Below, in pieces: positions 8,372 to 21,757 of a stretch of 38,461 bases of DNA. Both the position numbers and the translations under genes were made by a program. The notes under the pieces are model-generated. The model ran no database searches. It saw nothing but the letters and a program-made list of their open reading frames with translations, and was not told where the DNA came from. The DNA comes from Lentilactobacillus sunkii DSM 19904 (GTDB lineage: Bacteria > Bacillota > Bacilli > Lactobacillales > Lactobacillaceae): NCBI RefSeq assembly GCF_001435575.1, contig NZ_AZEA01000023.1:1-38461 (forward strand), in the 5' to 3' direction. How positions within the stretch are numbered: position 1 is the stretch's first letter; every line of letters starts with the position of its first letter.

Positions 8372-8890
8372 CTATTTCCTGTGACTATTCAGTTTTTGCT
8401 GCTGTGGGACAATAATTCGTTTCCAAATGCTCTTTAAGATAATATAGCCAAAAATCACGCCAACTAAAGCGCTCAGGAAAAAGCTTGGAATAAACAGATA
8501 AACTGCACCGGTCGTGCCCATCATCCAACTGGCAATCGGATAGGCAACAATTGCACCGATAATCCCAGTTCCAATGAGCTCACCACATGCTGCAATGATC
8601 AGTTTGTTGGTCTTTTGGAATAACCAGCCGACACAAAAAGCACCGATCATACTGCCGGGAAAAGCTAATACGGTTCCGGTTCCAAGTAAATTACGAATTA
8701 ATGATGTGATAAATGCTTGGGTGACTGCCCACCAGGGGCCAACAAGGACACCGGAAATCAAGTTGATCAAATGCTGCATTGGCGCAACTTTGGCGACGCC
8801 AATCGTAAATTCGAACATACTGCCGCCGACCACGCCAATGGCCGACAGGATTGCTGTGAGAACCATTTTATAAGTCATATTTTGTCGCAT
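8372..8890 (-). CDS. thiW: Thiamine-precursor ECF transporter S component ThiW
   Basis: This 172-residue membrane protein has about five to six hydrophobic segments. It resembles ThiW, the substrate-binding S component used with the shared ECF module (EcfA, EcfA', EcfT, not in this window) for uptake of a thiazole or thiamine precursor. The ATG at 8888-8890 is chosen because GGAGG ends 6 nt upstream; an 18-codon longer frame would read through the riboswitch hairpin. The riboswitch at 8940-9025 strongly supports a thiamine link. The assignment to ThiW rather than another thiamine S protein rests on overall pattern (MFEFTIGVAKVAPMQHLINLI, GPWWAV) and is likely but not certain. It converges on the LacI-type gene with zero spacing. 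Confidence 0.82.
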   Translation of the reverse strand: MRQNMTYKMVLTAILSAIGVVGGSMFEFTIGVAKVAPMQHLINLISGVLVGPWWAVTQAFITSLIRNLLGTGTVLAFPGSMIGAFCVGWLFQKTNKLIIAACGELIGTGIIGAIVAYPIASWMMGTTGAVYLFIPSFFLSALVGVIFGYIILKSIWKRIIVPQQQKLNSHRK

Positions 8891-8891
8891 A

Positions 8892-8929
8892 AAAAGCCTC
8901 CTTTCGTTAGATAACAAAAGGAGGCTTTT
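8892..8929 (-). terminator. Riboswitch expression platform: terminator that also hides the thiW Shine-Dalgarno
   Basis: A perfect 13-bp stem pairs 8892-8904 with 8917-8929 around a 12-nt loop. The 3' arm of the transcript contains AAAGGAGG, the ribosome site of thiW, and ends in T residues immediately before the ATG. Formation of the hairpin would both stop transcription and mask the ribosome site. The loop (8909-8916) is complementary over 8 nt to 9022-9029, which includes the 5' strand of aptamer helix P1. Confidence 0.8.
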
Positions 8930-8939
8930 CGCTTCTTTC

Positions 8940-9025
8940 AACACTTTCCTACGCTGGTACCAACCAGATCAGGTTCGAAGGGTCCGTTAATGTTTTCGTC
9001 TCAGCCAAAAGGCTCCCCTAATGTT
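8940..9025 (-). ncRNA. TPP riboswitch (THI box)
   Basis: The minus strand shows the THI-box hallmarks in order: AGGGGAGCC, GGCTGAGA, ACCCTTCGAACCTGATCTGG, TACCAGCGTAGG. Helix P1 is AACAUU (9020-9025) with AGUGUU (8940-8945). It precedes thiW and should switch its expression off when thiamine pyrophosphate is abundant. Confidence 0.96.
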
Positions 9026-9054
9026 ATCTTTGATTAAGTTTTCGTACGCCTTTA

Positions 9055-9093: not shown

Positions 9094-9966
9094 CTATTTC
9101 TTTTCCCGTTGAGCAACGGCTTCATGAACCGCTTCGATTACCTGGTCAACCGGCATCCGTTGGCCAGTCCACTCCAAAAATGAGCCGGCAGCTTGGTTCA
9201 CCAGCATCCCAATACCGTTATATGTATGACTTCCCTGCTTCTTGGCGGCACGGATAAATGGTGTTTCAAGTGGGAAATAAATGGCGTCAGTTACAATATG
9301 ATTCGAGGTCAAATGATTCAAAACAGCAGGCGTAACGGGCAATGATTTGTCGCCCGCCATGCCTATATTGGTTGAATTTGCGATAATTTGGCTTTGATCT
9401 ACCGCCTTGATCATCAACTCCTCATCTTCATAAGGCAACACTTCAACAACATTCGACCAAGCTTCCAACTGTTCTTTGCGGGATTCGAATAAATCGTTTG
9501 TCCGCTTGAATACATAGACTTTCTTCGCCCCAGCATCCACTGCAGCAGAAATGATTGCCCGGCCGGCACCTCCGGAACCCAAGACAGTAATCACCTTTTC
9601 ATCCAACGTGATATCATTGGCTTTTAATGCATCAATAAATCCCTGACCATCAGTACTGTCACCAATGAGTCGGCCATCCCGATTGACCACCGTATTGACT
9701 GCCTGCAGGCGTTCGGCACGTGGTGTCACTTCATCCAAAAGTGGAATGACATCAGTTTTTAGTGGCATTGATAAATTAAAGCCGCCAATATTCATCGTCC
9801 GCATCGCAGCAAGACTATCGGAAAGTCCTGCTGAGGTTACATCAAAAGCCAGGTATACACCATTGATTCCGGTCACCTTAAAACTGGTATTATGAATCAA
9901 CGGCGACAAACTATGAGCCGCCGGATGTGCTAAAAAGCCAAATAACTTTGTATGTCCATCGATCAT
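9094..9966 (-). CDS. aroE: Shikimate dehydrogenase (NADP+)
   Basis: This 290-residue enzyme reduces 3-dehydroshikimate to shikimate. The substrate site shows SLSP (residues 19-22) and GFNLSMPLK with the catalytic Lys at about residue 70; the partner Asp is in DSTDGQGF (about residue 106). The nucleotide-binding loop is VLGSGGAGRA. Slight departures from the commoner NVTxPxK and NTDGxG motifs (NLSMPLK, STDGQGF) resemble the quinate/shikimate dehydrogenase subgroup, so quinate activity is possible. GGAGGG lies 6 nt before the start ATG. It is the last gene of the aro operon, 16 nt after aroK. No clear terminator follows before the thiW promoter. Confidence 0.93.
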   Translation of the reverse strand: MIDGHTKLFGFLAHPAAHSLSPLIHNTSFKVTGINGVYLAFDVTSAGLSDSLAAMRTMNIGGFNLSMPLKTDVIPLLDEVTPRAERLQAVNTVVNRDGRLIGDSTDGQGFIDALKANDITLDEKVITVLGSGGAGRAIISAAVDAGAKKVYVFKRTNDLFESRKEQLEAWSNVVEVLPYEDEELMIKAVDQSQIIANSTNIGMAGDKSLPVTPAVLNHLTSNHIVTDAIYFPLETPFIRAAKKQGSHTYNGIGMLVNQAAGSFLEWTGQRMPVDQVIEAVHEAVAQREKK

Positions 9967-9982
9967 TCGAATCCCTCCATTG

Positions 9983-10489
9983 CTACATTTTTATGAATAA
10001 ATTTTTATTAATCGTTTCCACGACCTCGTTAGGTGTGAGCTCATCAGTTGCAACCCGGAAATCGCTAACTTGTTCGTACCGGGCATCCCTTTGACCTTTT
10101 AAATCAACTAGGCCGTCCAATCCAAGCTGTTTTGCCAATGGCCGATCTTGATTATTTTTTAACCGGGACATAATCGTTTCCGGCATTACATCCAACAGAA
10201 CAACCGGAACTTCACTATCCTTGAGCATCTCAAAGTTAACATCTTGAATGGGGGTTCCGCCACCGGTCCCTAAAATGCCCTCGCCATTAAGCGCTTCTTC
10301 GAGAGCCTCATGCTCCAGTTGGCGGAAGACAGTTTCCCCATCTTCGGCAAAAATTTGCTTAATTGGCTTACCGGCTTTTTCGATGACCATGTCATCCAAG
10401 TCATGGTATGGAATATTTAACTTTTTGGCCAATAAATGGCCAACGGTGGTCTTCCCGCTTCCCATAAATCCAACTAATATTGCTTTCAT
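9983..10489 (-). CDS. aroK: Shikimate kinase
   Basis: This 168-residue P-loop kinase phosphorylates shikimate with ATP. The Walker A is GFMGSGKTT (Lys13). The shikimate-binding features are DLDDMVIEKAG, FRQLEHE and GTGGGTP, and the lid region carries the Arg in QDRPLA. The start is ATG at 10487-10489 with GGAGG 6 nt upstream; the five-codon longer frame would overlap the end of tyrA and lacks a ribosome site. It sits 11 nt downstream of tyrA and 16 nt upstream of aroE in the same operon. Confidence 0.94.
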   Translation of the reverse strand: MKAILVGFMGSGKTTVGHLLAKKLNIPYHDLDDMVIEKAGKPIKQIFAEDGETVFRQLEHEALEEALNGEGILGTGGGTPIQDVNFEMLKDSEVPVVLLDVMPETIMSRLKNNQDRPLAKQLGLDGLVDLKGQRDARYEQVSDFRVATDELTPNEVVETINKNLFIKM

Positions 10490-10500
10490 AGGCTTCCTCC

Positions 10501-11352
10501 TCACTTATCCAGTGACTTTCTGATTTTTTGAGCTTTGGCAAAAGTTTTAAAGATTGTGTCTGCGTCCTGATCCTTGATTGCCGCCTGCAATTCACTTAGT
10601 TCCTGTTGAAATGATTGAATCTCACGACTAATTTCGATTGAATTACTCATCATAATCGCTGTCCACATCTTCGGGTCTGAAGCTGCTATCCGCGTGGTGC
10701 TTTTGAATCCCCCTGCAGCTGCATTTAACCCAACCGGATCATCCTTTAGGCTGTCAGCAATGCTATTGACCAAGACTGCTGCAACCGCGTGAGGAACGTG
10801 GCTGAGTTCGCTAACCAGTTTGTCATGGGTTTCTGCCGTGGTTGTTATCCATTCAACATTTGCCGACTTCATCAGTTTCTGAAGTTCGCGAAGTTGCCGG
10901 TCAGTTTGTGAACCGGTTACCAGGAAGTATTTTGATCCGGCAAACAGCTTTGCTGAACCATTTTCCCCACCAGTCAGATGAGATCCTGCCATCGGATGGC
11001 CACCGATAAAGCCAATTCCTGGTTGGGTGAGCTTCTTAGCTTCGTTCATAATGACCTGTTTGGTGCTGCCGACATCAGTAATGAGTGCCCCGTCCTTTAA
11101 TGGAAGCTTTGAAAGAATATCAATTTGTGCGACGATCACTGAAACCGGGCCTGCTAAAACGATCACATCGGCTTTTGGAGCGGCCTCCGCAAATTCTTCA
11201 CGTTCATCAATAATCCGATGATCCAATAAAAACTGGGCTGATCCATCGTCTGGATCACTGCCGATAATATCGGCCTCGGAATTGCCATCCTTGATGATTC
11301 TGGCAACAGAACTGCCAATCAACCCAAGCCCGCTAATTAGAACTGTCGTCAT
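10501..11352 (-). CDS. tyrA: Prephenate dehydrogenase
   Basis: This 283-residue NAD(P)-dependent enzyme converts prephenate to 4-hydroxyphenylpyruvate, the tyrosine branch. The N-terminal dinucleotide fold has GLGLIGSS; the catalytic region has GGHPMAGSHLTG and later HDKLVSELSHVPHA, with the substrate-binding His near residue 170. There is no C-terminal ACT domain (the family's longer members are about 360 residues), so feedback control by tyrosine on the protein is less likely. That fits control at the RNA level by the Tyr-rich leader. It follows aroA by 6 nt. Confidence 0.94.
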   Translation of the reverse strand: MTTVLISGLGLIGSSVARIIKDGNSEADIIGSDPDDGSAQFLLDHRIIDEREEFAEAAPKADVIVLAGPVSVIVAQIDILSKLPLKDGALITDVGSTKQVIMNEAKKLTQPGIGFIGGHPMAGSHLTGGENGSAKLFAGSKYFLVTGSQTDRQLRELQKLMKSANVEWITTTAETHDKLVSELSHVPHAVAAVLVNSIADSLKDDPVGLNAAAGGFKSTTRIAASDPKMWTAIMMSNSIEISREIQSFQQELSELQAAIKDQDADTIFKTFAKAQKIRKSLDK

Positions 11353-11358
11353 CTGCCA

Positions 11359-12675
11359 TCACCTCTGAATCAACGTACCCAAGTCATCAAAAAACTCCGG
11401 GTAGGAAATATTAATGCTGTTGGCACCTGCCAAAGTCAACGGCTGGTCAACCAGAAGGGCAGCGACTGCCATGACCATGCCGATTCGATGGTCACCGTGG
11501 CTATCTAACTGAGAATTAGCCACGTGCCAATGCTTCCGGCCATCAATGATAAAGCCGTCTTCTAATTCCTCAATTGAGATCCCTAACTTGCGGAATTCAG
11601 TCACAATAGCTGAAATCCGATCGGTCTCTTTAACCCGCAATTCACCGGCACCAGTGATCTTGCTGATACCATTGGCTTTTGCTGCCAATAAAGCTACTAA
11701 AGGTAATTCGTCAATAACAGCGGGAATTTCGTCAGCACCAATCTCAATGGGTTTCAGGTTAGCTGATTCAACGGTCAAATCGGCTGTCGGTTCGCCATCA
11801 CTGTTCTCATTTGACAGGCTGATCTTTCCGCCCATCCGTTTCAAAATCTCGTATAAGCCGGTTCTGGTGTCGTTCATGCCCACATTGAGCAGTTTTACCT
11901 TGGAGTTCGGAACCAAGCTGGCAGCTGTCATAAAGAAGGCTGCTGATGACATGTCTCCCGGTACGTTCATCTCAATCCCATGCATTTTCGGATCTGGATG
12001 AACGGTAATCGTAACATCGTCCGGTTCAGTTTCGATATCTGCACCAAATGCCCGCAGCATGATTTCGGTATGATTTCTGGTTGGCTGCTTTTCGACGAAG
12101 ATGGAATCGCCATCTGCCTGTAGTCCTGCCAGAATCAAGGCACTTTTAACCTGGGCGCTGGCCACCTTTAAATGATAATCGACTGAATGGAGCTGTTTCC
12201 CAGTGATTGTGGCCGGTAAATGGCCATCGGTGACCGCGATGTCGGCACCCATCTGGGCAAGTGGCTCACCTACTCGTTTCATCGGCCGCTTGGATAATGA
12301 GGCATCGCCGATCAGCTTGGTCTGAAAGTTCTGACCCGCCAGCAATCCCATAATTAATCGGGTAGTGGTTCCGGAATTGCCCATATCAAGCGGTTCGTTC
12401 GGTTCCTGCAATCCATGAAGGCCAACTCCTTCAATCTTGACCGTCTTGCCATCTCTGGTAATCGGCACGCCAAGCTGTTGAAATGCCTTCAGAGTGGATA
12501 AACAGTCCTCTGCAGTCAGAAAGTGATGGAGGATTGTGGTTCCCTCACTAATCGCGCCGAACATAATCCCGCGGTGGGAAATGCTTTTGTCACCGGGAAC
12601 AGCCAATTCACCGTTCAGGCCGGTTTGAAGATTCCCTTGGAGCTCTTTAGTTGTGCCAACCTTAACTTTTTCCAT
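11359..12675 (-). CDS. aroA: 5-enolpyruvylshikimate-3-phosphate synthase
   Basis: This 438-residue two-domain inverse alpha/beta barrel enzyme joins shikimate-3-phosphate and PEP. The PEP/S3P signature is PGDKSISHR near residue 28, followed by GNSGTTTRL near residue 101 and the C-terminal LRVKETDRI and HGDHRIGM. The start ATG follows AGGAGG by 6 nt. It lies 9 nt after aroC and 6 nt before tyrA. The residue after GNSG is T (GNSGTT), so this is not the GNAGTA-type site of the E. coli class. Confidence 0.96.
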   Translation of the reverse strand: MEKVKVGTTKELQGNLQTGLNGELAVPGDKSISHRGIMFGAISEGTTILHHFLTAEDCLSTLKAFQQLGVPITRDGKTVKIEGVGLHGLQEPNEPLDMGNSGTTTRLIMGLLAGQNFQTKLIGDASLSKRPMKRVGEPLAQMGADIAVTDGHLPATITGKQLHSVDYHLKVASAQVKSALILAGLQADGDSIFVEKQPTRNHTEIMLRAFGADIETEPDDVTITVHPDPKMHGIEMNVPGDMSSAAFFMTAASLVPNSKVKLLNVGMNDTRTGLYEILKRMGGKISLSNENSDGEPTADLTVESANLKPIEIGADEIPAVIDELPLVALLAAKANGISKITGAGELRVKETDRISAIVTEFRKLGISIEELEDGFIIDGRKHWHVANSQLDSHGDHRIGMVMAVAALLVDQPLTLAGANSINISYPEFFDDLGTLIQR

Positions 12676-12684
12676 TTGGACCTC

Positions 12685-13851
12685 CTAGAATTTCTTCAAT
12701 TCTTCCCGGTATTGGGCTAACTGTTCCTGTAATCGCTGAAGATTGTCGCCGTCAAACTTATCGGTTAGTGCTTTCGACAATTCGATTGCAACGACACTTT
12801 CAATGACAATCGAAGCCGGAACGATCGCCGTTGTGTCGGAACGTTCAACGTTGGCCTTTTTGACTTCTTTGGTCTGAATATCAACACTCTGAAGCGGCTT
12901 GTACAAGGTTGGGATTGGCTTCATGGCTACTTTAACAATAATTGGCATCCCATTGGTCATCCCGCCTTCAAAACCACCAAGATGATCGGTATTTCTAAAG
13001 AAGCCTTTGTCTTGATTCCAATCAATTTCATCCATCACTTGGCTGCCTAAGCTGGTTGCGGCTTTAAAGCCATCGCCAATTTCGACACCCTTCATGGCAT
13101 TGACACCCATGACTGTGGCAGCAAGCTTAGCGTCCAACTTGGTATCCCAACTGATGTAACTGCCTAACCCGGCTGGAACGTTTGTTGCAACAACCCGGAT
13201 GATGCCGCCCAATGTGTCACCGTCACGTTTCGTTTGGTCAATCAGTTCATGGATAGAATCAACCTTTGACTGATCGATGATTCTCAAATCATTTTGAGCA
13301 ATTTCATCCTCAATCTTTCCCACATTCAGTTCGGGATTTGCATCCGTTGAAATCTGGCCAATTTGTTCCACATAGCCGACAAGGTTAATCCCAAGTTGTT
13401 CCAAGAACTGCTTGCAGACAGCGCCAATGGCAACTCTGATGGCTGTTTCCCGAGCTGATGAGCGTTCCAAGACATTTCGCAGGTCCTCATGGCGATACTT
13501 CATCCCACCAACCAAATCAGCATGGCCGGGACGTGGTCGTTCGACTTTTCTTAAAGTGTTCTCGGGGGTTTCGGGGCTAACCGGATCCATGATTTGACTC
13601 CAATGAGCATGGTCACGGTTTTGGACAACCATTGAAACGGGTGATCCAAGGGTAATTCCGTGACGAACGCCGCCTGTGATGGTGACCTCATCATGTTCGA
13701 TTTTTTGACGGTTGCCTCGGCCATAGCCGCCTTGCCGCTTCTTCAATTGTTCATTGATAGCGTCAATATCCAAATGAAGTCCTGAAGGGATTCCTTCAAT
13801 AATTCCAGTTAATTGTGGTCCGTGAGATTCTCCGGCAGTTAAGTAATTCAT
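12685..13851 (-). CDS. aroC: Chorismate synthase
   Basis: This 388-residue FMN-dependent enzyme makes chorismate from EPSP. Signatures visible are GESHGPQLTGIIEG at the N-terminus, GRGNRQKIEHDEV, the RPRPGHADLVGG box, ERSSARETA and the late ERSDTTAIVPASIV. The start ATG overlaps the TAA of the chorismate mutase gene (TAATG), which suggests translational coupling, and GGAGAG lies in front of it. It is the second structural gene of the operon. Confidence 0.96.
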   Translation of the reverse strand: MNYLTAGESHGPQLTGIIEGIPSGLHLDIDAINEQLKKRQGGYGRGNRQKIEHDEVTITGGVRHGITLGSPVSMVVQNRDHAHWSQIMDPVSPETPENTLRKVERPRPGHADLVGGMKYRHEDLRNVLERSSARETAIRVAIGAVCKQFLEQLGINLVGYVEQIGQISTDANPELNVGKIEDEIAQNDLRIIDQSKVDSIHELIDQTKRDGDTLGGIIRVVATNVPAGLGSYISWDTKLDAKLAATVMGVNAMKGVEIGDGFKAATSLGSQVMDEIDWNQDKGFFRNTDHLGGFEGGMTNGMPIIVKVAMKPIPTLYKPLQSVDIQTKEVKKANVERSDTTAIVPASIVIESVVAIELSKALTDKFDGDNLQRLQEQLAQYREELKKF

Positions 13852-14168
13852 TATTTGCTCTCCTTTTGCATCAATTGATGTTGGTAATCACGTGAGTTTT
13901 TTAAAATCGCTTGGAAAATATTTTGCAGATACTTTTGCGTTTCTGCATCTGAATCATGTTGGGCCACCTGCTCCAATACCTGTTTCTCCCTGTCGTTATC
14001 AAGAACCGGCAGTTGTGATTCTTCTTTAATCCGCCCAATCCGTGCCGAAGTTTCAAATCGCTTCTTCAATAAATCAATAATCGATTGATCCAATTGATTA
14101 ATTTGGCGGCGAGCTGCTTGAATCTCATCGTGACCGCTGATGGTTGAACTCTTAATATTATTTGTCAT
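13851..14168 (-). CDS. Chorismate mutase, AroQ (CM_2) type
   Basis: This 105-residue, all-helical, stand-alone chorismate mutase converts chorismate to prephenate. The typical first helix is seen as IQAARRQINQLDQSIIDLLKKRF, followed by ARIGRIKEES and the DREKQVLEQV segment, which carry the usual Arg/Lys/Glu active-site residues. The start ATG at 14166-14168 has AGAGG 8 nt upstream. A 40-codon longer open frame upstream is rejected because it runs backwards through the attenuator terminator. It is the first structural gene after the leader at 14193-14409, and overlaps aroC by one base. Confidence 0.9.
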   Translation of the reverse strand: MTNNIKSSTISGHDEIQAARRQINQLDQSIIDLLKKRFETSARIGRIKEESQLPVLDNDREKQVLEQVAQHDSDAETQKYLQNIFQAILKNSRDYQHQLMQKESK

Positions 14169-14192: not shown

Positions 14193-14226
14193 AAAAAACC
14201 AGCTGGGAATGGTATCCAGCTGGTTT
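14193..14226 (-). terminator. Attenuator terminator of the aro operon
   Basis: An 11-bp stem pairs 14196-14206 with 14216-14226 (AAACCAGCTGG / CCAGCTGGTTT) around a 9-nt loop and ends in six T residues on the minus strand. It lies between the leader peptide and the chorismate mutase start, so it can end transcription before any structural gene. Confidence 0.9.
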
Positions 14227-14309
14227 ACTAAATTCGTAAAGAATGGTAACTCACCCAGCCAGACTATAACGTCTAGTGGGCTCAACAAAGCATTGACTCT
14301 GCACCACTT

Positions 14310-14348
14310 GGACGCGAACGCTCAATTTGCGTCCGCCCCGAAGCGGAC
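14310..14348 (-). promoter_or_regulatory. Mutually exclusive leader hairpins (aro attenuator)
   Basis: Hairpin A (14331-14348, GTCCGC/GCGGAC) starts 1 nt after the leader stop codon. Hairpin B (14310-14334, GGACGC/GCGTCC) shares the four bases 14331-14334 with A, so only one can form. A further pairing partner of the terminator, GGCUGG in the transcript near 14256-14261, precedes it. This is the usual logic of ribosome-controlled attenuation. Confidence 0.7.
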
Positions 14349-14349
14349 A

Positions 14350-14409
14350 CTACATAAAGTAGGCATAGTCAAAATAATAGGCTGTTGCAGTTGTTGTTTG
14401 CTTTGTCAT
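14350..14409 (-). CDS. Tyr/Phe-rich leader peptide of the aro operon (19 aa)
   Basis: The peptide is MTKQTTTATAYYFDYAYFM. Six of its nine last residues are Tyr (4) or Phe (2). AGAGAGGA lies about 10 nt before the ATG, the promoter at 14442-14470 lies just upstream, and alternative hairpins and a terminator follow. This combination is the hallmark of an attenuation leader: scarcity of charged tRNA-Tyr (or Phe) would stall the ribosome in the codon cluster and favour the antiterminated structure. The product itself is probably not functional. The same layout occurs at 21637-21696. I know of no gene name for it. Confidence 0.88.
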   Translation of the reverse strand: MTKQTTTATAYYFDYAYFM

Positions 14410-14441
14410 TGTTATCAATTCCTCTCTTAAAAGTTGTATTA

Positions 14442-14470
14442 ATTAAAACATATTAGAAATTATTCGTCAA
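14442..14470 (-). promoter_or_regulatory. Promoter of the aro operon
   Basis: The -35 is TTGACG (14465-14470) and the -10 TTTAAT (14442-14447), with a 17-nt spacer. The spacer end TTCTAATATGT is shared with the promoter at 21729-21757. Confidence 0.88.
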
Positions 14471-14531
14471 CCCTAATCGTTCACTCATTTCATTTTAATC
14501 CTTCAATTAGAGTTTATTTTAGATTGAAGCG

Positions 14532-15797
14532 TTAAATTGCAGCGTTCACTTCACTTGTTACCTTAACCTGCTGGAACGTGTCTGCAGCAGCTTGGGCATG
14601 GACTTTGGTTCCATTTTGATAAACGTCTTTATCGTGTTGAATCACACTGATGTCATTAATTGGATTTTCTTCCATTGAAATAAAGTCCGCAAAGTTGCCT
14701 ACCGCAATCTGGCCATACTCATTATCAACGTGCATAGCTCTGGCACAGTTAATGGTTGCCGAATCGATTGCTTGAGCGGGTGTCATCCCCGCCTTCTCAA
14801 CGTATAATTCCATCTCATAGGCACTTTCATTTCTGAAACCATTGTATGGAGTCCCAGCGTCAGTTCCCATGGCGATCGGAATCCCTGCCTGGACAGCTTT
14901 GGTGATGCTGGCAAAATGCTTCTTGATGTTCACAATGACCTTTTCTCTTGCCCAGTCCGGAACTGTATCCTTGCCATATTTATAAATGGCATACATCGCA
15001 TTCATCGTTGGGACAACGACTGTTCCATGATCCTTCATCATTGCAATTGTTTCATCATCAATGTCAAAGGCATGTTCAACGGTGTCAAAGCCGGCCTCGA
15101 CTGCCTCCTTAACCCCTGCGTTGCCTTGTGCGTGGGCCGCAGCCGTCTTGCCTTTGTGGTGAGCTTCAGTGACCGCTGCTCTGGCCTCTTCCGATGTAAA
15201 TTGAATGTCATCTGGTGTCTCACCGTTTTTAAGAACTCCGCCAGTCACCATCATTTTAATGTTATCGACGCCATTTTTCATTGCCTGGCGAACACCTTTA
15301 CGAACTTCATCAACCCCGTCGACTTCATATCCACCGCCTGAACCATGGCCACCGGTAATTGAAAATGCTTTGCCGGAAGTCATGACTTTTGGCCCTCTGA
15401 TCCAGCCTCTTTCCTGCATCTTTTTGATTTCAATATCAATGTCGAATGCAGCCCCAACGTTTCTGATATAAGTAACGCCATGATCAATCGCATCAGCCAT
15501 GTTTCTCACGGCAAACATTGTATTAAATTCGCGTGAATCGGAGTGACGTTGTTCTTTGCCATCGTTCCACCAATATGTCGGAATACTGGTGATATGGGTA
15601 TGGGCATTCATGATCCCCGGCATGACATATCGACCATTCATATCGGAAACTTCGTCGACAACCTGGTCTGTGGAACTGCCATTGCCGACCTCGACAATCT
15701 TCCCGGTTTCCGTATCGACCACCATATGCTGGTTTTCAATAAAGTTCTGCTTCTCATGGTTGTAAATTGCGACATTCGTATAATTGATTTTTGTCAT
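14532..15797 (-). CDS. Metal-dependent amidohydrolase (imidazolonepropionase/Xaa-Pro dipeptidase-like)
   Basis: This 421-residue TIM-barrel hydrolase has the first metal pair in MNAHTHI, the probable carboxylated Lys in GVDNIKMMVTGGV, His in AAAHAQG and TVEHAF, and the final Asp in MGTDAGTPYNG. These place it in the Met-dependent hydrolase group that includes dipeptidases and prolidase-like enzymes. It has no signal peptide. The start ATG (15795-15797) follows AAAGGAAG. A 42-codon ORF with a stronger ribosome site overlaps its start in another frame. It lies downstream of the peptide-binding lipoprotein gene on the same strand, so processing of an imported peptide or N-acyl amino acid is plausible but unproven. 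Confidence 0.85.
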   Translation of the reverse strand: MTKINYTNVAIYNHEKQNFIENQHMVVDTETGKIVEVGNGSSTDQVVDEVSDMNGRYVMPGIMNAHTHITSIPTYWWNDGKEQRHSDSREFNTMFAVRNMADAIDHGVTYIRNVGAAFDIDIEIKKMQERGWIRGPKVMTSGKAFSITGGHGSGGGYEVDGVDEVRKGVRQAMKNGVDNIKMMVTGGVLKNGETPDDIQFTSEEARAAVTEAHHKGKTAAAHAQGNAGVKEAVEAGFDTVEHAFDIDDETIAMMKDHGTVVVPTMNAMYAIYKYGKDTVPDWAREKVIVNIKKHFASITKAVQAGIPIAMGTDAGTPYNGFRNESAYEMELYVEKAGMTPAQAIDSATINCARAMHVDNEYGQIAVGNFADFISMEENPINDISVIQHDKDVYQNGTKVHAQAAADTFQQVKVTSEVNAAI

Positions 15798-15882
15798 AAT
15801 AAATCTTCCTTTCGATGTAAAATGCTTGGTTGCGGACTAACTGAGACGGAACATCTTTAGAACTCTTTAACTGGTATGCCAT
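15754..15882 (-). CDS. Small ORF (42 aa) overlapping the amidohydrolase start
   Basis: ATG at 15880-15882 is preceded at 8 nt by a full AAGGAGG (15891-15897), one of the best ribosome sites in the window. The frame reads MAYQLKSSKDVPSQLVRNQ and continues to a TGA inside the amidohydrolase gene, overlapping it by 44 nt in a different frame. Composition is charged and polar with no membrane segment. It could be a leader peptide that couples translation of the amidohydrolase, or a true small protein. I do not recognise it. Confidence 0.55.
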   Translation of the reverse strand: MAYQLKSSKDVPSQLVRNQAFYIERKIYYDKNQLYECRNLQP

Positions 15883-15965
15883 GGCAACCACCTCCTTAAA
15901 TGTGTGGGATTAATTTTGAAGCTTTCTTTTTGTGCTTTTCCCCATTACTTTTCTGAAACGTGTTC

Positions 15966-16062
15966 GGCATAACTGATGCTAATTTCTAAGTGCACTTTGA
16001 CTAAAACCCAGGACCGGGGTTTCAGCCAAAGTCCCCTTAGAAACCGCATCACCCGTTATGCC
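15966..16062 (-). ncRNA. Long rod-like hairpin between the oppA-like and amidohydrolase genes
   Basis: Successive paired blocks are GGCATAAC/GTTATGCC at the outer ends (15966-15973 with 16055-16062), TGATGC/GCATCA, TTTCTAAG/CTTAGAAA and CACTTTG/CAAAGT, closing on a short loop near 16010. It starts 11 nt after the lipoprotein stop codon. No T-run follows on either strand, so it is not a plain terminator. A processing or stabilising element, or a small inserted palindrome, is possible. Confidence 0.6.
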
Positions 16063-16072
16063 TCACACTCTG

Positions 16073-17710
16073 CTATTTCCAGAATGCGTATTGCAGCTTC
16101 CCTGACTGTCCGGACATTGCATCCCACTTCAAACCGCCTACTTTACTGCTGATCAAATGGGCTTGCGATGCCTGATACGTTGGGGCTACTGCTGCAATTG
16201 ACATCAATCGCTTATCCGCCTGTTTTTCAAAATCCCATCGCTGATTTGCATCATACTTGGTTGTATCATCCACCTTGTTCATCAAATCGTCATATTGTTG
16301 ATCCTTGAACTTCGAGAAGTTAATCGTGTTGTTACTGCGCATCCCATCCAAGAAGTTTTGGGCATCCGGATAGTCTGGACCCCAGCCAACTGTACAAATG
16401 TCGAAGTCGGTTGAGAAGTCACGGGTCACATGAGTTGCATGCGGTACAGATTCAATGTTGATGGTTAGTCCCTTAAGGTTGTTTGAAACCGCACCCTGAA
16501 CGTATTCGGCCAGCTTCTTCTCGGTGTCGGTATCATCGACCAGGAAGTCCAATGAAATTTTATCCTTACCAATTTCTTTTTGAGCTTTGGCCCAATACTC
16601 TTTGGCTTTAGTCGTGTCAGTCGGTGCCTGATCACCCATCTCAGACGTAAAGTCTTCGCCGGTCTTAGGATCTTTGGCATAATCTTTCGGTACGATATTA
16701 TTAGCACCGATTGAACCATCCTGAAGGACATCCTCAGCCAATTGGTCCTGGTCAATCACCATACTGATTGCTTTTCTCAGGTTTTCGTTTGAAGTTGCTT
16801 TCTTCTTATCATTAAAGTAAATATAGTTGTTTCGACCAGTTTCGGTAACGACCAGATTCTTGTTATTCTTGTTCTCTTTCACATACTGGCCGGTCAGGCT
16901 GGTCAAATCAATCTGGCCGCCGTTAAACATGTTCTGGGCTGTGTTGTTATCTTTGACAACGGTAACGTCAACTTCTGGGATCTTCACGTTTTTGGCATCC
17001 CAGTAGTTCTTGTTCTTCTCATACTTCCATGAATCATTGGTGCCATTCCATCCAGTGATCACGTATGCCCCGTTGGCGACTGTCTTGTCGGAACTTGATC
17101 CATATTGGCTGCCATATTTTTTAATGGCGGACGTTTGAATCGGGTAAAAACTGGTGAACTCATAATTCATGAATGGCACCGGCTTAGTCAACTTGATGGT
17201 GAATGTCCGGTCATTAACCGCATGAATTCCAAGTTTACTTGGATCAGCTTTACCGCTGTTAACGGCGGCGAAGTTCTCAATGTATTGAATGGACGTTGTC
17301 TGTTGTGATTTGGTCCTGGGATCGGCTTGTCGATCAATCGAGTTCACAAAATCCTCGGATTTGATGGCCGAACCATCCTGCCATTTGGCATCTTTGTTAA
17401 TGTTAAATGTGTATTTGGTGCCGTTGTCAGTTGGCTTAACAACTTCGTCAACAACCCCCGCTGCAATCTTGTTATTCGCATCCCTACGATAAATACCTTC
17501 ACTGACTTGGTCGATGACTGCACCGCCATTGGTTTCAATGGATTTAGTTGGATCAATTGTTAATGGTTCTCCTGGAATCGTTATTTTTAAGGCTTTTTCA
17601 GCACTCCCAGCACCTCCGCCAACTGCTGTCGACGCACAGCCGCTTAATAAGACAGCCATAAATCCAATAACGACACTAATCATGGCTGTAAATCTTATAT
17701 CCTTAAACAT
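16073..17710 (-). CDS. Oligopeptide ABC transporter substrate-binding lipoprotein (OppA family)
   Basis: This 545-residue SBP family 5 protein would be anchored outside the membrane. A lipoprotein signal ends in LLSGC with the modified Cys at residue 25. The mature part shows the family features LTIDPTKSIETNGG, EGIYRRDANNKI, WQDGSAIKSEDFV and the C-terminal VGWGPDYPDAQNFLDGM. The start ATG (17708-17710) is preceded by GGAGG at 7 nt; a 23-codon longer frame lacks a ribosome site. No Opp permease or ATPase genes are adjacent, so it is an orphan that must share a transporter encoded elsewhere. Expression is under the T-box at 17778-18045, tying it to starvation for one amino acid. Confidence 0.93.
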   Translation of the reverse strand: MFKDIRFTAMISVVIGFMAVLLSGCASTAVGGGAGSAEKALKITIPGEPLTIDPTKSIETNGGAVIDQVSEGIYRRDANNKIAAGVVDEVVKPTDNGTKYTFNINKDAKWQDGSAIKSEDFVNSIDRQADPRTKSQQTTSIQYIENFAAVNSGKADPSKLGIHAVNDRTFTIKLTKPVPFMNYEFTSFYPIQTSAIKKYGSQYGSSSDKTVANGAYVITGWNGTNDSWKYEKNKNYWDAKNVKIPEVDVTVVKDNNTAQNMFNGGQIDLTSLTGQYVKENKNNKNLVVTETGRNNYIYFNDKKKATSNENLRKAISMVIDQDQLAEDVLQDGSIGANNIVPKDYAKDPKTGEDFTSEMGDQAPTDTTKAKEYWAKAQKEIGKDKISLDFLVDDTDTEKKLAEYVQGAVSNNLKGLTINIESVPHATHVTRDFSTDFDICTVGWGPDYPDAQNFLDGMRSNNTINFSKFKDQQYDDLMNKVDDTTKYDANQRWDFEKQADKRLMSIAAVAPTYQASQAHLISSKVGGLKWDAMSGQSGKLQYAFWK

Positions 17711-17777
17711 AGCAATTCCTCCAATATATTTGTATTGATATCGATGACCATACAGCCGCGTTGTGTCCATGAAACAC

Positions 17778-18045
17778 AAAAAGCGTCCAATCAGAAGTTA
17801 AACTTCCAAAAGGACGCTTTTGCGCGGTACCACCTTTTTTGTGAAATAAATATTCCACCTCTCACGTACAACCGGTCGACACGGTATACGTTGGCGCTGT
17901 ATTGGGCGCACCCGAGTGATTCTGAACGAACCACCGTGCTCAAAATTGGCTTTAAGTGATTAAGAAATTACGCCTTCACAGATAACGACGCTCTCTTTGA
18001 ATTTCTTAATACCGACTGTCCAATTTCTCTAAGCACTTTCTCATC
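17778..18045 (-). ncRNA. T-box riboswitch upstream of the oppA-like gene
   Basis: The T-box core GGTGGTACCGCG lies at 17823-17834 on the minus strand, followed by an intrinsic terminator (AAAGCGTCC / GGACGCTTTTT, 17778-17821). Stem I is visible as GUGCU..AAAUUGG with CCAAUUU..AGCAC, and an 11-bp upper helix (UUAAGAAAUU with AAUUUCUUAA). The UGGU of the T-box calls for a tRNA with discriminator A. The specifier is not clear: CUU (Leu, 17954-17956) is the best fit in the 3' loop strand UCACUUAAAG, with weak confidence. Confidence 0.92.
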
Positions 18046-18062
18046 GATATCTAATGTTAAGT

Positions 18063-18091
18063 ACCGTAACGAATCTCAAAATGTTTGTCAA
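18063..18091 (-). promoter_or_regulatory. Promoter of the T-box/oppA-like transcript
   Basis: The -35 is a consensus TTGACA (18086-18091); the -10 TACGGT (18063-18068) is weak, with a 17-nt spacer. Transcription would begin just before T-box stem I. Confidence 0.65.
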
Positions 18092-18195
18092 CACCACTGA
18101 GCAAATTTATCCAACAACTCGTTCATGAATCCGACCTCCCATCGCAGTGTCAGCAAGGACTCATAATCATTCAAAAATTTCGAAAATAAGTTTGA

Positions 18196-18224
18196 TTGAC
18201 TTACCTCATTCGTAATGTGAAAAT
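18196..18224 (+). promoter_or_regulatory. Putative promoter of the polysaccharide deacetylase gene
   Basis: TTGACT (18196-18201) and GAAAAT (18219-18224) are 17 nt apart and lie about 42 nt before the start codon. Confidence 0.5.
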
Positions 18225-18266
18225 TAACTTGAAGTACAAAACTAAAGGTAATTCGGGGTGATCATC

Positions 18267-19283
18267 ATGATTAAGAAGCATTTATTTGTAACGTTGGGCA
18301 TCACTGCAGCAAGCCTCTTCGCACTCAGTATCAGCAATCATTCAGCTCCACAGGCTCATGCAGCAGCTAATTTAACATATGGGAAAATTACCAACAACAG
18401 CCTTCATCGGCTGGGCACCATCCGTCAATTAACCCGTGCTCAATTAGCAGCCGACCACAAATTAACCGGCAAACAGGTTCAGCAATTGGTTTATCTGCCA
18501 CTACCAAAACGATTAACGGCCCACAACTTTACATTGAGTAAGAAGGCTTTAACCATTCATTTGGTCAAGAATTCATACGGTGTAAAAAATGTCGCCATTC
18601 CACTGAGTAAACTCACAGGAATTATTTTGAATCGCTATATGCCTGCCAAGTATGACTTTGTTAAGCCAAAGACACCAAACAAAGTTGTATCTATGACGTT
18701 TGACGATGGACCGGATCCAACGTTGACACCAAAGTTACTCAAAATTTTGAAACACTATAATGTACCTGCCACATTCTTTGAAGTCGGCAGTAGCGTCATC
18801 CGTTACCCAAGTATCAGCCGAATGGTTCTCAAATACGGGAACCAAATCGGAAACCATTCATGGAATCATCCGGACCTGACGAGCCTTTCAAGTACCAGGG
18901 CACTACATCAGATTGCATTGACTGATGCAGCCATTTACAAGGCCACCGGCACGATTCCGGCGTATGTTCGCCCACCATACGGTTCAGTTAACAGCCGGAT
19001 AGGAAACTTGTATGACCGGCCGATCGTTCGATGGAACGTTGACTCACGTGACTGGGCATATCTAAACACACCAAAGACTGTCCAACACGTTTTGGCAACT
19101 ACCCATCCAGGCTCAATCATTTTAATGCATGATATCCATCCAACATTGGTTGCCGCTGTCCCTCAGATTATCCGTTCATTGAAGAAACGCGGATACACCT
19201 TTGTGACATTGCCAACCCTCATGCAAAAGCCGTTGCTGGCTAACTTACAGTACTTTGGTCGAGGCGACTTTCGCGGATTTTAA
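18267..19283 (+). CDS. Secreted polysaccharide deacetylase (NodB/PgdA type)
   Basis: This 338-residue protein has a Sec signal peptide (charged IKK, hydrophobic core, cleavage after AHA near residue 32). An N-terminal domain of unknown type (about 35-130) precedes the NodB homology domain. All five motifs are present: TFDDGP (144-149), NHSWNHPDL with the two metal His, RPPYG, DSRDW, and ILMHD near the end. Such enzymes remove N-acetyl groups from peptidoglycan or other amino-sugar polymers and often confer lysozyme resistance. ATG at 18267 is preferred to the upstream GTG because GGGGTGA lies 5 nt before it. It is a single gene ending in its own terminator. Confidence 0.92.
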   Translation: MIKKHLFVTLGITAASLFALSISNHSAPQAHAAANLTYGKITNNSLHRLGTIRQLTRAQLAADHKLTGKQVQQLVYLPLPKRLTAHNFTLSKKALTIHLVKNSYGVKNVAIPLSKLTGIILNRYMPAKYDFVKPKTPNKVVSMTFDDGPDPTLTPKLLKILKHYNVPATFFEVGSSVIRYPSISRMVLKYGNQIGNHSWNHPDLTSLSSTRALHQIALTDAAIYKATGTIPAYVRPPYGSVNSRIGNLYDRPIVRWNVDSRDWAYLNTPKTVQHVLATTHPGSIILMHDIHPTLVAAVPQIIRSLKKRGYTFVTLPTLMQKPLLANLQYFGRGDFRGF

Positions 19284-19291
19284 CTCGCTTT

Positions 19292-19316
19292 AAAGCTTCC
19301 TTTCGAGGAAGCTTTT
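19292..19316 (+). terminator. Intrinsic terminator after the deacetylase gene
   Basis: The stem AAAGCTTCC (19292-19300) pairs with GGAAGCTTT (19307-19315) around TTTCGA and is followed by T residues. Confidence 0.9.
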
Positions 19317-19389
19317 TGATATTGCAGTTAGTTTGTGAGATTGGTAGAATGAGTCATAAGTAAACCAAAATTCAGGAGGATCGTGTGAT

Positions 19390-20145
19390 ATGAGTGGAAA
19401 ATTAACTGTTGGCCAAACAACATTTGAGACTGGAACAACTAAGATTGCCGTCCCGATCACGGGTCGCTCTTCTGATGAAATCCTACAACAGGCAAAAACA
19501 GCTGTTGAAGCTAACCCAGACGTGATTGAATGGCGAATTGACTATGATCAAGAGGTATCAGATTCCGATTCATATTTCAAAACAGCACATAAACTCAAAA
19601 CCATCTTGGATGACACCGTTCTTCTGACAACTTTTCGAACGACTGGAGAGGGTGGCCAAGCAAGTCTTGATGAATCGGCATACGTTAAACTTTACAAATG
19701 GATTATCGAAAACGGTCTGACTGATATGCTGGATATCGAAGGACATTTTAGTGAAGCGTTAATCAGTGATCTCATTTACCTCGCCCATCAGCACAATATC
19801 AAAGTTATCTTAAGCGCCCACGAATTCCAAGGCACCCCACCTGAATTGGAAATCGTCAATCTCTTGGACCAAATGCAAAATCAAAACGCTGATATGGCTA
19901 AGATCGCCGCAATGCCCCGCAAATTCAAAGATGTTCTGACATTGATGCGGGCAACCGCAAGTGAATCCGAAAAATTGGAAATTCCTATAATTGCGATTTC
20001 AATGGGTGAATTGGGCCAGATCTCGAGAATGGCTGCACCGCTATTTGGTTCAGTAATGAGTTTTGCCACGGTTGGAAATGCTTCAGCCCCGGGACAAATT
20101 GAAATCGGGGAGCTTCGTAAAGATATGAAATTATTTAACCATTAA
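19390..20145 (+). CDS. aroD: 3-dehydroquinate dehydratase, type I
   Basis: This 251-residue class I aldolase-fold enzyme dehydrates 3-dehydroquinate to 3-dehydroshikimate. Catalytic residues are recognisable: the EWR motif (about 47-49), the general-base His in ILSAHEFQGTP (about 144) and the Schiff-base Lys in MAKIAAMPRK (about 171). GASAPGQ-type closure is seen as ASAPGQI near the C-terminus. CAGGAGG precedes the start ATG. It is separate from the aro operon and stands convergent with the YdiN-like MFS gene, which carries a Tyr-rich attenuator. It could serve biosynthesis or quinate catabolism. Confidence 0.96.
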   Translation: MSGKLTVGQTTFETGTTKIAVPITGRSSDEILQQAKTAVEANPDVIEWRIDYDQEVSDSDSYFKTAHKLKTILDDTVLLTTFRTTGEGGQASLDESAYVKLYKWIIENGLTDMLDIEGHFSEALISDLIYLAHQHNIKVILSAHEFQGTPPELEIVNLLDQMQNQNADMAKIAAMPRKFKDVLTLMRATASESEKLEIPIIAISMGELGQISRMAAPLFGSVMSFATVGNASAPGQIEIGELRKDMKLFNH

Positions 20146-20178
20146 AAAAGAAACTGCAAACTTTGCAGTTTCTTTTTT
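20144..20178. terminator. Bidirectional terminator between aroD and the MFS gene
   Basis: An almost perfect palindrome (AAAAAAGAAACTGCA / TGCAGTTTCTTTTTT with AACTT between) overlaps the aroD stop codon. It has A and T runs suited to both strands. Confidence 0.92.
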
Positions 20179-20185
20179 GTGTTCT

Positions 20186-21442
20186 CTATTCATCCTTGGA
20201 TTGACCTTGACCAACCGGTGTCCCGCCAATGTGCAACAACGTCATGACTGAATGGCCAGCGTGCCCCAAGACATTTCCGGTCCCAATTGCCAACGAAGTG
20301 ATGACAACCAATCCGGTTCCAACAAGTCCAATCACAACATCAAAGTTCATGACGGCTTGTATACTGGTTTGAGATAAGATTCCAGTCACAATCGGAATCG
20401 TGAAGGTCGCAATACTGCCGAACGTAAAGTAAGTTCCAGTAATCACACCTTTATGGGTTGGAAACATCTTAAGCAAAACATTGAGGGCAATTTGCATCAC
20501 CCCACCGGCAGCAGTGAATCCAAACACAAAGCAGCCGACTGATGTCATGATAACTGTTGAAGCGTTGGTGACCGTTAGCAAAGCCACGAGTGAAATTGTG
20601 TTAGTAACAACCAGCAATTTAGTTTCCGTTACGTTTAATTTCAACAAGATGAACATCACGATCACACCACTGATTGAACCAATACTGTACAATGACAGTA
20701 ATCCATGGGACACCAATGAACTGTATCCAAGATTTTTAGTCGCAAACATACTGATCCACTGAGTAAACAGAATCATGATTGCCATCGTCGTGTAACCGTA
20801 TAGTGCCAAGGCGATAGTGGCAGTTACCCGACGCACTTTTGATAAAGATTGGTGGGCCTCACTGAATGCTTCATCAGTATTATTTCTCTCAGGGAAGTGG
20901 GCACCATGAAGGACAAACAGATTTACAACCAGGACAAGCAGCGCCCCGATGAATGACCAGCCAAACCACAGTTGTCGAGCCTCAAGAGTCGCAATGAAAA
21001 GCGGCAGGATGAATTCACCCAAACTCATGAAAGCCTTGATGAAGACATTGGAAGCGCTGGAATTACCACCCATTTCAACAAAGGTTGGGTAAGTACCCGA
21101 ATCCAGAGCAGAGTTGGCAACCCCGGCAATAATCGCAAATAAGTAAGCAATGACGATGTTGTGAGTAAATGGGATTCCAATAAAGAAGACCATGTAACTC
21201 AAGGTTCCGGTTAAAACAAGCTTACGCCGGCCGAAACGATCCGACAGGTAGCCAAACAGGAAGTAGGCGATCAACTTTCCTATCCCAATACCGGAAATAA
21301 CGTATGAAACAGTTGCGATAGGCACATTCCAGAAGCCACCAAGTGCCTGCATGTTCTGTGTCAGAATAATCAGCCCAATTCCATGGACCAGGTAGTTCAG
21401 GTATAGTGCCATTGATAATCTTCGTTTATTGGATCTCGTCAT
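20186..21442 (-). CDS. MFS transporter, YdiM/YdiN-like, under a Tyr-rich leader attenuator
   Basis: This 418-residue, 12-TM major facilitator protein resembles, from memory, E. coli YdiN/YdiM in the segment HGIGLIILTQNMQ, SGIGIGKLI, LFGYLSDRFGRRKL (motif A) and ANSALDSGTYPT. Those E. coli genes lie beside ydiB and aroD and are suspected of moving shikimate-pathway compounds. Here too the gene is next to aroD (convergent). The ATG at 21440-21442 is chosen: GGGAGAG lies 8 nt upstream, whereas a GTG three codons earlier overlaps that site. Upstream are a promoter, a leader peptide (YYYGYAWF) and a terminator matching those of the aro operon. The likely cargo is therefore tyrosine, another aromatic amino acid, or a precursor such as shikimate; the direction is unknown. 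Confidence 0.85.
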   Translation of the reverse strand: MTRSNKRRLSMALYLNYLVHGIGLIILTQNMQALGGFWNVPIATVSYVISGIGIGKLIAYFLFGYLSDRFGRRKLVLTGTLSYMVFFIGIPFTHNIVIAYLFAIIAGVANSALDSGTYPTFVEMGGNSSASNVFIKAFMSLGEFILPLFIATLEARQLWFGWSFIGALLVLVVNLFVLHGAHFPERNNTDEAFSEAHQSLSKVRRVTATIALALYGYTTMAIMILFTQWISMFATKNLGYSSLVSHGLLSLYSIGSISGVIVMFILLKLNVTETKLLVVTNTISLVALLTVTNASTVIMTSVGCFVFGFTAAGGVMQIALNVLLKMFPTHKGVITGTYFTFGSIATFTIPIVTGILSQTSIQAVMNFDVVIGLVGTGLVVITSLAIGTGNVLGHAGHSVMTLLHIGGTPVGQGQSKDE

Positions 21443-21473
21443 AATAATCACTCTCCCAAGTATGTAAGTAAAT

Positions 21474-21507
21474 AAAAAGCCAGCTGGATATTAGAATCCA
21501 GCTGGCT
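21474..21507 (-). terminator. Attenuator terminator of the YdiN-like gene
   Basis: A 12-bp stem pairs 21478-21489 with 21496-21507 (AGCCAGCTGGAT / ATCCAGCTGGCT) with a 6-nt loop and ends in T residues on the minus strand, between leader peptide and gene. It shares the CCAGCTGG core with the aro attenuator. Confidence 0.9.
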
Positions 21508-21603
21508 GATTTCTTATTAACTCGCTTAAGAAATTATACCCATCCGGCTAGACTCTAGCGTCTAGCTGGCAACAACAAAGTTACGACTTTGCCCAGGTTA
21601 GAC

Positions 21604-21637
21604 GCGAACGCGTTGCGCGCTCGCATCTCACGAGCGC
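21604..21637 (-). promoter_or_regulatory. Mutually exclusive leader hairpins (YdiN-like attenuator)
   Basis: Hairpin A' (GCGCTCG/CGAGCGC, 21617-21623 with 21631-21637) touches the leader stop codon. Hairpin B' (21604-21612 with 21616-21624) reuses the same bases 21617-21623, so the two exclude each other, as in the aro leader. Confidence 0.68.
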
Positions 21638-21696
21638 TACTTAAACCATGCATAGCCGTAATAATAGGCATTCAATTGTTGAAGTTGAGTATTCAT
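21637..21696 (-). CDS. Tyr-rich leader peptide of the YdiN-like transporter gene (19 aa)
   Basis: The peptide is MNTQLQQLNAYYYGYAWFK, with four Tyr, one Trp and one Phe in its last eight or nine codons. AAAGGA lies about 9 nt before the ATG. It has exactly the same length as the aro leader peptide, and sits at the same place relative to a near-identical promoter and alternative hairpins. It is best read as a stalling sensor for charged aromatic tRNA, mainly tRNA-Tyr. Confidence 0.87.
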   Translation of the reverse strand: MNTQLQQLNAYYYGYAWFK

Positions 21697-21728
21697 AGAT
21701 ATAATTCCTTTCTTGAAATGTTGAACTC

Positions 21729-21757
21729 ATTAAAACATATTAGAATTGGTTCGTCAA
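21729..21757 (-). promoter_or_regulatory. Promoter of the YdiN-like gene
   Basis: TTGACG (21752-21757) and TTTAAT (21729-21734) with a 17-nt spacer ending TTCTAATATGT, as in the aro promoter. Confidence 0.88.

Follow-up and report, generated by a model that had tools for sequence, protein, structure and literature searches.

Two homologous modules on the minus strand of the contig NZ_AZEA01000023.1 of Lentilactobacillus sunkii DSM 19904, here called A and B and spaced by about 7.3 kb, probably act as ribosome-mediated transcription attenuators, a reading to which we give a probability of roughly 0.85 for each of them. The whole stretch of DNA that was analyzed (38,461 nucleotides; contig 16 in a genome of 2.69 Mb) is referred to as the window. 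By their anatomy, the modules in the window are attenuators; that they respond to an amino acid is what we infer. The evidence is computational and consists of leader open reading frames (ORFs), a codon bias, conservation throughout the order Lactobacillales, six helices with covariation, and an effect of ribosome position on folding. Two of the features by which an attenuator is recognized are present, namely mutually exclusive helices that end in an intrinsic terminator before a gene, and a short ORF with a ribosome-binding site and clustered cognate codons.

Both modules consist of a promoter, a Tyr-rich leader of 19 codons with a TAG stop, and a terminator. The promoters are alike, with TTGACG, a 17-nt spacer that has TTCTAATATGT at its end, and TTTAAT (14442–14470 in module A, where it is conserved in an alignment of 25 modules, and 21729–21757 in module B, as read from the sequence), and ATTAAAATGAAAT lies upstream of each. 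The leader peptides, identified by sequence, alignment and a match to the leader pattern, are MTKQTTTATAYYFDYAYFM in module A (14350–14409, with the Shine–Dalgarno (SD)-like GAGAGGA immediately 5′) and MNTQLQQLNAYYYGYAWFK in module B (21637–21696). Sequence and alignment delimit the strands that follow. Strand a (14343–14350 in A, 21631–21637 in B) begins inside the stop codon in module A. Strand b (14329–14342 in A; GATGCGAGCGC, 21617–21627 in B) has a or S1 as its partner, with one mismatch to S1 in module A. S1 is GCGTTCGCGTC in both modules, 3′ of the leader stop (14311–14321 and 21601–21611), S2 is CCCACTAGACG in A (14270–14280) and CCAGCTAGACGC in B (21558–21569), and S3 is AGTCTGGCTGGG in A (14254–14265) and GTCTAGCCGG in B (21544–21553). 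The terminators are of the CCAGCTGG type, followed by T runs. In module A (14193–14226) they comprise S4 (CCAGCTGGA, 14215–14223), S5 (CCAGCTGG, 14199–14206) and the T run at 14193–14198; in module B (21474–21505), S4 (CCAGCTGGA, 21497–21505), S5 (TCCAGCTGG, 21480–21488) and the T run at 21474–21478. The original prediction, made from the letters of the window, had described two modules on the same strand about 7 kb apart that share promoter, spacer end, upstream stretch, leader length, post-stop segment and terminators, and this description is borne out.

In the proposed mechanism, a ribosome would translate the short leader. When charged tRNA-Tyr is scarce, it would stall on the Tyr codons, 9 to 3 codons before the stop, covering the leader end, which would otherwise be paired with S1, and leaving strand a free. 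The helices a:b, S1:S2 and S3:S4 would then form, the S4:S5 terminator would be blocked and the operon would be transcribed. When Tyr is plentiful, the ribosome would reach the stop, where it would cover strand a and free b; b:S1, S2:S3 and S4:S5 would form and transcription would end. If no ribosome is present, pairing of the leader end with S1 would lead to termination as well. That the ribosome stalls on uncharged tRNA, and which way the regulation runs in the cell, are the steps that we infer. In relatives, other genes are preceded by modules of this design that carry Phe, Trp or His codons, so that the amino acid to which they respond seems to be interchangeable.

The relay a-b-S1-S2-S3-S4-S5, which ends in the terminator, is supported by covariation. 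Pairs were counted in 100 modules aligned to a covariance model, R1, that was built from 22 modules and held only the helices a:b, S2:S3 and S4:S5; the resulting alignment (A3) includes R1 source sequences and lacks its eight lowest rows, which were weak and all lay on the opposite strand of modules already counted. The strands are paired to 96.7% in a:b, 93.3% in b:S1, 94.4% in S1:S2, 92.6% in S2:S3, 93.1% in S3:S4 and 98.8% in S4:S5, compared to 4–52% for slid partners, which served as a control. None of 500 shuffles reaches the observed number of paired cells or of two-sided changes in any of the six helices. Three of these, b:S1, S1:S2 and S3:S4, are absent from the search model and yet supported. 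Base pairs are also replaced by others, as in the S1:S2 columns 125–188, with 66 GC and 27 AU. In a module that precedes an aminotransferase gene in another genus (L031), the same chain of strands can be followed by eye in a quite different sequence. Counts on a MAFFT alignment (A2) were weighted less, as it misplaced the S2 loop in L064 and L079. A pairing of b with one half of S1 only was dropped in favor of the longer b:S1 helix after reading of the alignment.

The position of the ribosome affects which of these helices is predicted to form. Transcripts ending after S2 were folded at equilibrium after deletion of all RNA 5′ of the ribosome edge, assuming a footprint of 12 nt beyond the A-site. 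Three states were compared in 99 modules from Lactobacillaceae and 43 from other families; 11 of the 54 loci in the latter group, as well as L274, were excluded because a text pattern missed S1 or S2. In Lactobacillaceae, the median probability (P) of S1:S2 is 0.02 without ribosome, 0.79 with the ribosome stalled and 0.05 with the ribosome on the stop, and in the other families these medians are 0.03, 0.60 and 0.16; P is higher in the stalled state than on the stop in 84 and 31 modules, respectively. P(b:S1) shifts in the opposite direction to P(S1:S2) in 70 of the 99 Lactobacillaceae modules, and against this expectation in none. When the edge is scanned along these modules, the favorable A-site codons are −9 to −3, which is the site of the aromatic codons. 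For the pairing of the leader end with S1, the module's own partner beats all 100 swaps in both sets.

Several results weigh against this interpretation. The S1:S2 step is reversed in 10 of the 99 and in 3 of the 43 modules. Module B of the window is itself reversed (0.29 stalled, 0.66 on the stop) and module A agrees only moderately (0.40 stalled, 0.12 on the stop). Moreover, P(S1:S2) in Lactobacillaceae goes up again, to a median of 0.51–0.68, with the edge 18–21 nt past the stop. The S3:S4 step is weak, with P up in 40 of the 99 modules, down in 6 and within 0.1 in 53 (under other cut-offs, 55 up, 8 down and 40 equal out of 103). At equilibrium, S2:S3 is preferred in both states in module A and in the stalled state in module B, and the model therefore needs co-transcriptional kinetics. 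In three loci of the trpB-motif set described below (L283–L285), the antitermination pairing is favored also with a ribosome far upstream. A greedy partner search at p ≤ 0.05, superseded by the counts on the model alignment, succeeded for S3 in 95 and for S2 in 97 of 103 modules and was weak for S1 (35/103) and b (39/103). Lastly, kinship among the sequences inflates the significance of shuffle tests, for which reason more weight is given to the controls with slid partners and to the base pairs that are replaced.

Modules of this type are widespread in Lactobacillaceae. At E ≤ 0.01, where about four matches are expected by chance, R1 matches 186 of the 397 genomes searched, and 32 of 40 genera are represented. 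From the best-scoring matches, those listed, 77 were looked at together with 28 earlier modules; 103 of these 105 have a leader and a terminator, and L127 and L142 were dropped for want of one of them under the rules of the script. Target genes were grouped by similarity or motif, with ten representatives scanned. Leaders with at least three Tyr precede genes for chorismate mutase, transporters of the major facilitator superfamily (MFS), AroE, AroA, AroK, an aminotransferase and an NhaC-type antiporter, three such genes having mixed leaders. Phe leaders lacking a Tyr run precede 17 genes for TrpX-type ABC substrate-binding proteins and 5 genes for a protein that we name after its IHTLGP motif. 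At least four Tyr, Phe or Trp codons lie within the last nine codons in 136 of the 142 folded modules and in 1 of 222 short ORFs that have an SD before them in the flanks of these modules; this control indicates that aromatic leader ends are uncommon by chance, bearing in mind that the scripts choosing the leaders were biased to aromatic ones. Downstream, at a distance of up to about 350 nt and in the same orientation, a gene related to amino acids is present for 102 of the 103 modules and for 58 of 60 loci taken across the order, the exceptions being L140, L228 and L276. Two further family matches that fall outside its pattern (L062, L063) were set aside; an unrelated gene follows and no such module was seen.

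Some of the target genes deserve a separate description. The IHTLGP protein (176–204 amino acids, with the start ..IHTLGP..TDS.AAA) stands behind Phe-type leaders in L132, L133, L134, L152 and L153; the two copies tested gave no Pfam match (1e-4), no NCBIfam match (1e-6) and no convincing PDB match. Going by its leader, a Phe-linked role is suggested. Behind two Tyr-type modules, ORFs of about 480 amino acids (L185:1025–2488 and L145:523–1962) are fusions of MFS_1 with a C-terminal CM_2 domain according to Pfam. In two Enterococcus loci (L082, L083) a relative of the MFS transporter lies directly 3′ of an ORF that by eye resembles the end of aroE, an arrangement that supports a putative link of the transporter to the shikimate pathway.

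Outside this family, a second model, R2, matches 84 of 148 genomes sampled across the order (E 0.001). In a sample of 119 genomes from the phylum, R2 found only the matches of the host itself and none in the 118 others, at least 20 of which lie outside the order. The 60 loci mentioned above were taken from the R2 match list, and 54 of them are outside Lactobacillaceae. All 54 have a leader with at least three aromatic residues near its end. Judged by motif, 44 precede TrpX-type genes and 7 aroE; the others, one each and scanned, precede a DAHP synthase, an aminotransferase and a solute-binding/permease fusion.

A first alternative is a metabolite riboswitch, whose structured part would bind an amino acid or a related ligand directly. 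The RNA is strongly structured and stands before amino-acid genes, and the trpB motif (RF04312, SRC-39-1, Narunsky et al. 2024), to which the modules are related in design, is classed as a strong riboswitch candidate in the accessible part of its description, where a classic attenuator is left possible and no upstream ORF (uORF) is named for it (PMC11109978). RF04312 is matched below the cut-off by L242, L243 and L264; it occurs in 28 of 117 genomes (E 0.001) of one other family of the order, 8 of them over the cut-off, and in 1 of 249 genomes in a search of the phylum. In a set of 30 out of 47 loci among the matches listed, a uORF ends 18–22 nt 5′ of the motif in 28, and it does so in nine of the nine loci above the cut-off, including one from another family (L277, ..TWQNWRR), which argues against a riboswitch. 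No fitting uORF was found in L288, where neither a gene nor a matching leader was detected, or in L305 (E 9.2e-4). Also contrary to direct ligand binding, the codons of the uORF vary with the gene that follows. Nine uORFs of the type ..WQSWR precede TrpX-like proteins (the one that was scanned exceeds the NCBIfam cut-off), eight of the type ..VYFFWRR or YYYYRHG precede an amino-acid permease, one ..YYFSYFR precedes a DAHP synthase, and ten are of the HHHLHR type, nine of which have a gene in reach, for an ABC permease, a permease or a YjeM-like transporter; the script that picked the uORFs favored Trp, Tyr and Phe, not His. Furthermore, in the Lactobacillaceae form, alternative pairings account for the conserved strands, and not a fixed aptamer. 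We therefore consider a riboswitch unlikely.

The attenuator reading probably extends to the trpB motif itself. In the folding of its set (n = 28, with L282 lacking a scripted terminator), the favorable window is formed by codons −6 to −3, and the Trp, His, Tyr and Phe codons are at −6 to −2. The trpB form is shorter, with a, b, S1 and the terminator arms, to which the window type adds S2 and S3. Both chains start with the same a, b and S1, the right side of P1 in the motif has the 5′ arm of the terminator as its partner, and the kinds of genes are the same; it reads as a five-strand version of the seven-strand design; in contrast, the window modules do not match RF04312 and carry S2 and S3. 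Among the targets, the TrpX protein that follows a Trp leader clears the NCBIfam cut-off (467.6 of 390), which the one behind a Phe leader does not (313.9) (L184, L278), as if the family had two substrates. In L303, a YjeM-like transporter stands behind a leader that contains His (NHRHHR), a hint that its substrate is histidine or a related compound.

A nascent-peptide arrest like that of TnaC, in which the ..FSYFR peptide would stall the ribosome with a free amino acid bound, is more improbable still. FSYFR is indeed present near the end of 38 of the 54 leaders outside Lactobacillaceae, but other peptides are very different (AYYFDYAYFM, QFAFSFFFR, WQSWR, HHHLHR). Since the constant leader end coincides with the pairing of the leader end to S1, a constraint on the RNA can explain it.

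Little room is left as well for a small RNA (sRNA) acting in trans, with an incidental arrangement of genes, which is how Rfam family RF02863, "Enterococcus sRNA 2410," is filed. Of the 18 loci that were scanned from other families of the order, 7 reach the gathering score of RF02863 (L242, L264, L257, L244, L233, L262 and L227); the window modules do not. In the structure of RF02863, S1 has the leader end as its partner, which provides an extra strand that takes S1 when there is no ribosome. In contrast to an sRNA gene, the matching loci have a leader ORF before amino-acid genes, and the high proportion of loci followed by such a gene argues against a role in trans alone. By name and size, RF02863 is presumably the sRNA_2410 of E. 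faecium, for which 195 nt and two transcripts on a Northern blot are reported in the accessible part of PMC5593968. These transcripts favor a discrete RNA, yet a terminated leader would itself yield one, and they might correspond to the leader ended at its terminator and to a product of readthrough or processing. A second role of the RNA in trans may exist alongside attenuation. T-boxes, i.e., tRNA-binding leaders, are common before amino-acid genes in Lactobacillales according to the accessible parts of PMC2494555 and PMC9413887, and have a negligible probability here, as an Rfam scan of the whole window at the gathering threshold returned a TPP riboswitch as its single match and neither T-box, RF02863 nor RF04312, and as none of these three was matched in module A or B, T-box RF00230 not even at E up to 1.

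RF02863, RF04312 and the window type are linked as one design by their chain of strands, not by score, and the window type and the trpB type probably share an ancestor. On these grounds, there is a good chance that one superfamily of codon-exchangeable relay attenuators, with five or seven strands, extends over Lactobacillales, an order in which T-boxes were regarded as the chief amino-acid leaders, including the trpB motif and Enterococcus sRNA 2410, and that the codons of the leader label the cargo of the transporters behind it. If this is true, neither RF04312 nor RF02863 is what it is filed as. The open question of the ligand of the trpB motif might then be answered by there being none, with the ribosome as the sensor, and a catalogued small RNA would be reclassified as a terminated leader. 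Lactic acid bacteria would have widespread leader-peptide control beside their T-boxes. Substrates of uncharacterized transporters could be assigned from a few codons, such as Trp versus Phe or Tyr in the TrpX family, His for permeases and the Tyr-linked MFS proteins. A single scaffold that occurs with codons for Tyr, Phe, Trp or His would moreover represent a natural codon-swap experiment on attenuation.

The trp, his and phe attenuators of enterobacteria combine a leader peptide containing regulatory codons with alternative helices and an intrinsic terminator, using four strands in trp and six in his. The present modules resemble them by design in all three elements; they differ by their seven strands and by the ribosome on the stop, which would free b by covering a. 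In Firmicutes, His leader attenuators are known from Bacillus, Erysipelotrichales and Peptostreptococcaceae, and T-boxes from Lactobacillales; leader-peptide attenuation is shared with these, and the present family is not described in the accessible parts of these sources (PMC9413887, PMC2965389). By its description, uORFC-13-1 before aroF, an aromatic gene, in a different genus, Acholeplasma, likewise combines a terminator with a uORF that has one Phe codon or more (accessible part of PMC8632094). Beyond PMC11109978 and PMC5593968, no earlier description of the family was seen among the papers listed in literature searches.

The two window modules had been called duplicates. Their likeness is not due to chance, as judged by similarity search: with module A as the query, B is retrieved at E 1.8e-21, and the match that comes after it in the genome has E 0.8. 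Homology thus stands, and a recent duplication was rejected. With 67% identity, A and B are no closer to one another than each is to certain modules from other genera, as A is 72% identical to L179 and B is 75% and 71% identical to L072 and L081 from two other genera; moreover, orthologs of each occur in congeners, so that the term overstates recency. In a search with module B among 60 relatives, the host genome included, 22 had a match at E ≤ 0.01, four of which (G029, G041, G050 and G057) are short and without leader. A, B or both are present in 16 of the 23 congeners sampled, with leader ends that are mostly ..AYYFDYAYF. or ..NAYYYGYAWF., with some variants. Module B of the congener G006 (L020, L038) is interrupted directly 5′ of the terminator by about 1.5 kb, the pieces overlapping by 8 nt, and the insert contains a transposase-like ORF of 423 amino acids. 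In G229, from another genus (L064, L072), two B-type modules each precede one of two MFS paralogs.

The original prediction had further proposed that the copied module forms a regulon at additional aromatic genes, and had named a genome scan with only two copies as evidence to the contrary. Neither the leader-codon pattern nor two covariance models found a third strong copy in the host genome; the third match of one of these models (E 0.003) is the opposite strand of the terminator of module B, and the next has E 0.24. The idea of a regulon copied within one genome is therefore not upheld. What is supported is that modules with a Tyr-rich leader and a terminator at aromatic genes form a single kind of regulator. 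The profile scan of other Lactobacillaceae suggested at the same time did give many matches before aromatic genes, and in relatives modules with a Tyr leader and a terminator do stand before further aromatic targets, the targets found there being aroE, aroA, aroK, chorismate mutase, DAHP synthase, aminotransferase and transporter genes. A random dispersed repeat next to unrelated genes was rejected, given the lack of a third strong copy and the amino-acid genes that are the neighbors of the modules.

The first gene 3′ of module A encodes a chorismate mutase (13851–14168, minus strand; Pfam CM_2 5.9e-20, NCBIfam TIGR01805), and is followed by aroC, aroA, tyrA, aroK and aroE (9094–13851, minus strand; NCBIfam). 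Downstream of module B lies an MFS transporter gene (20186–21451, minus strand; Pfam MFS_1 3.8e-26), which stays below every NCBIfam cut-off. The TPP riboswitch in the window (RF00059, 70.1 bits, 8929–9029, minus strand) is located 5′ of an ORF at 8372–8944 that resembles a thiamine transporter. Elsewhere in the window, two adjacent and similar ORFs of 144 amino acids on the plus strand (31262–31696 and 31866–32300) look like small heat-shock proteins by eye.

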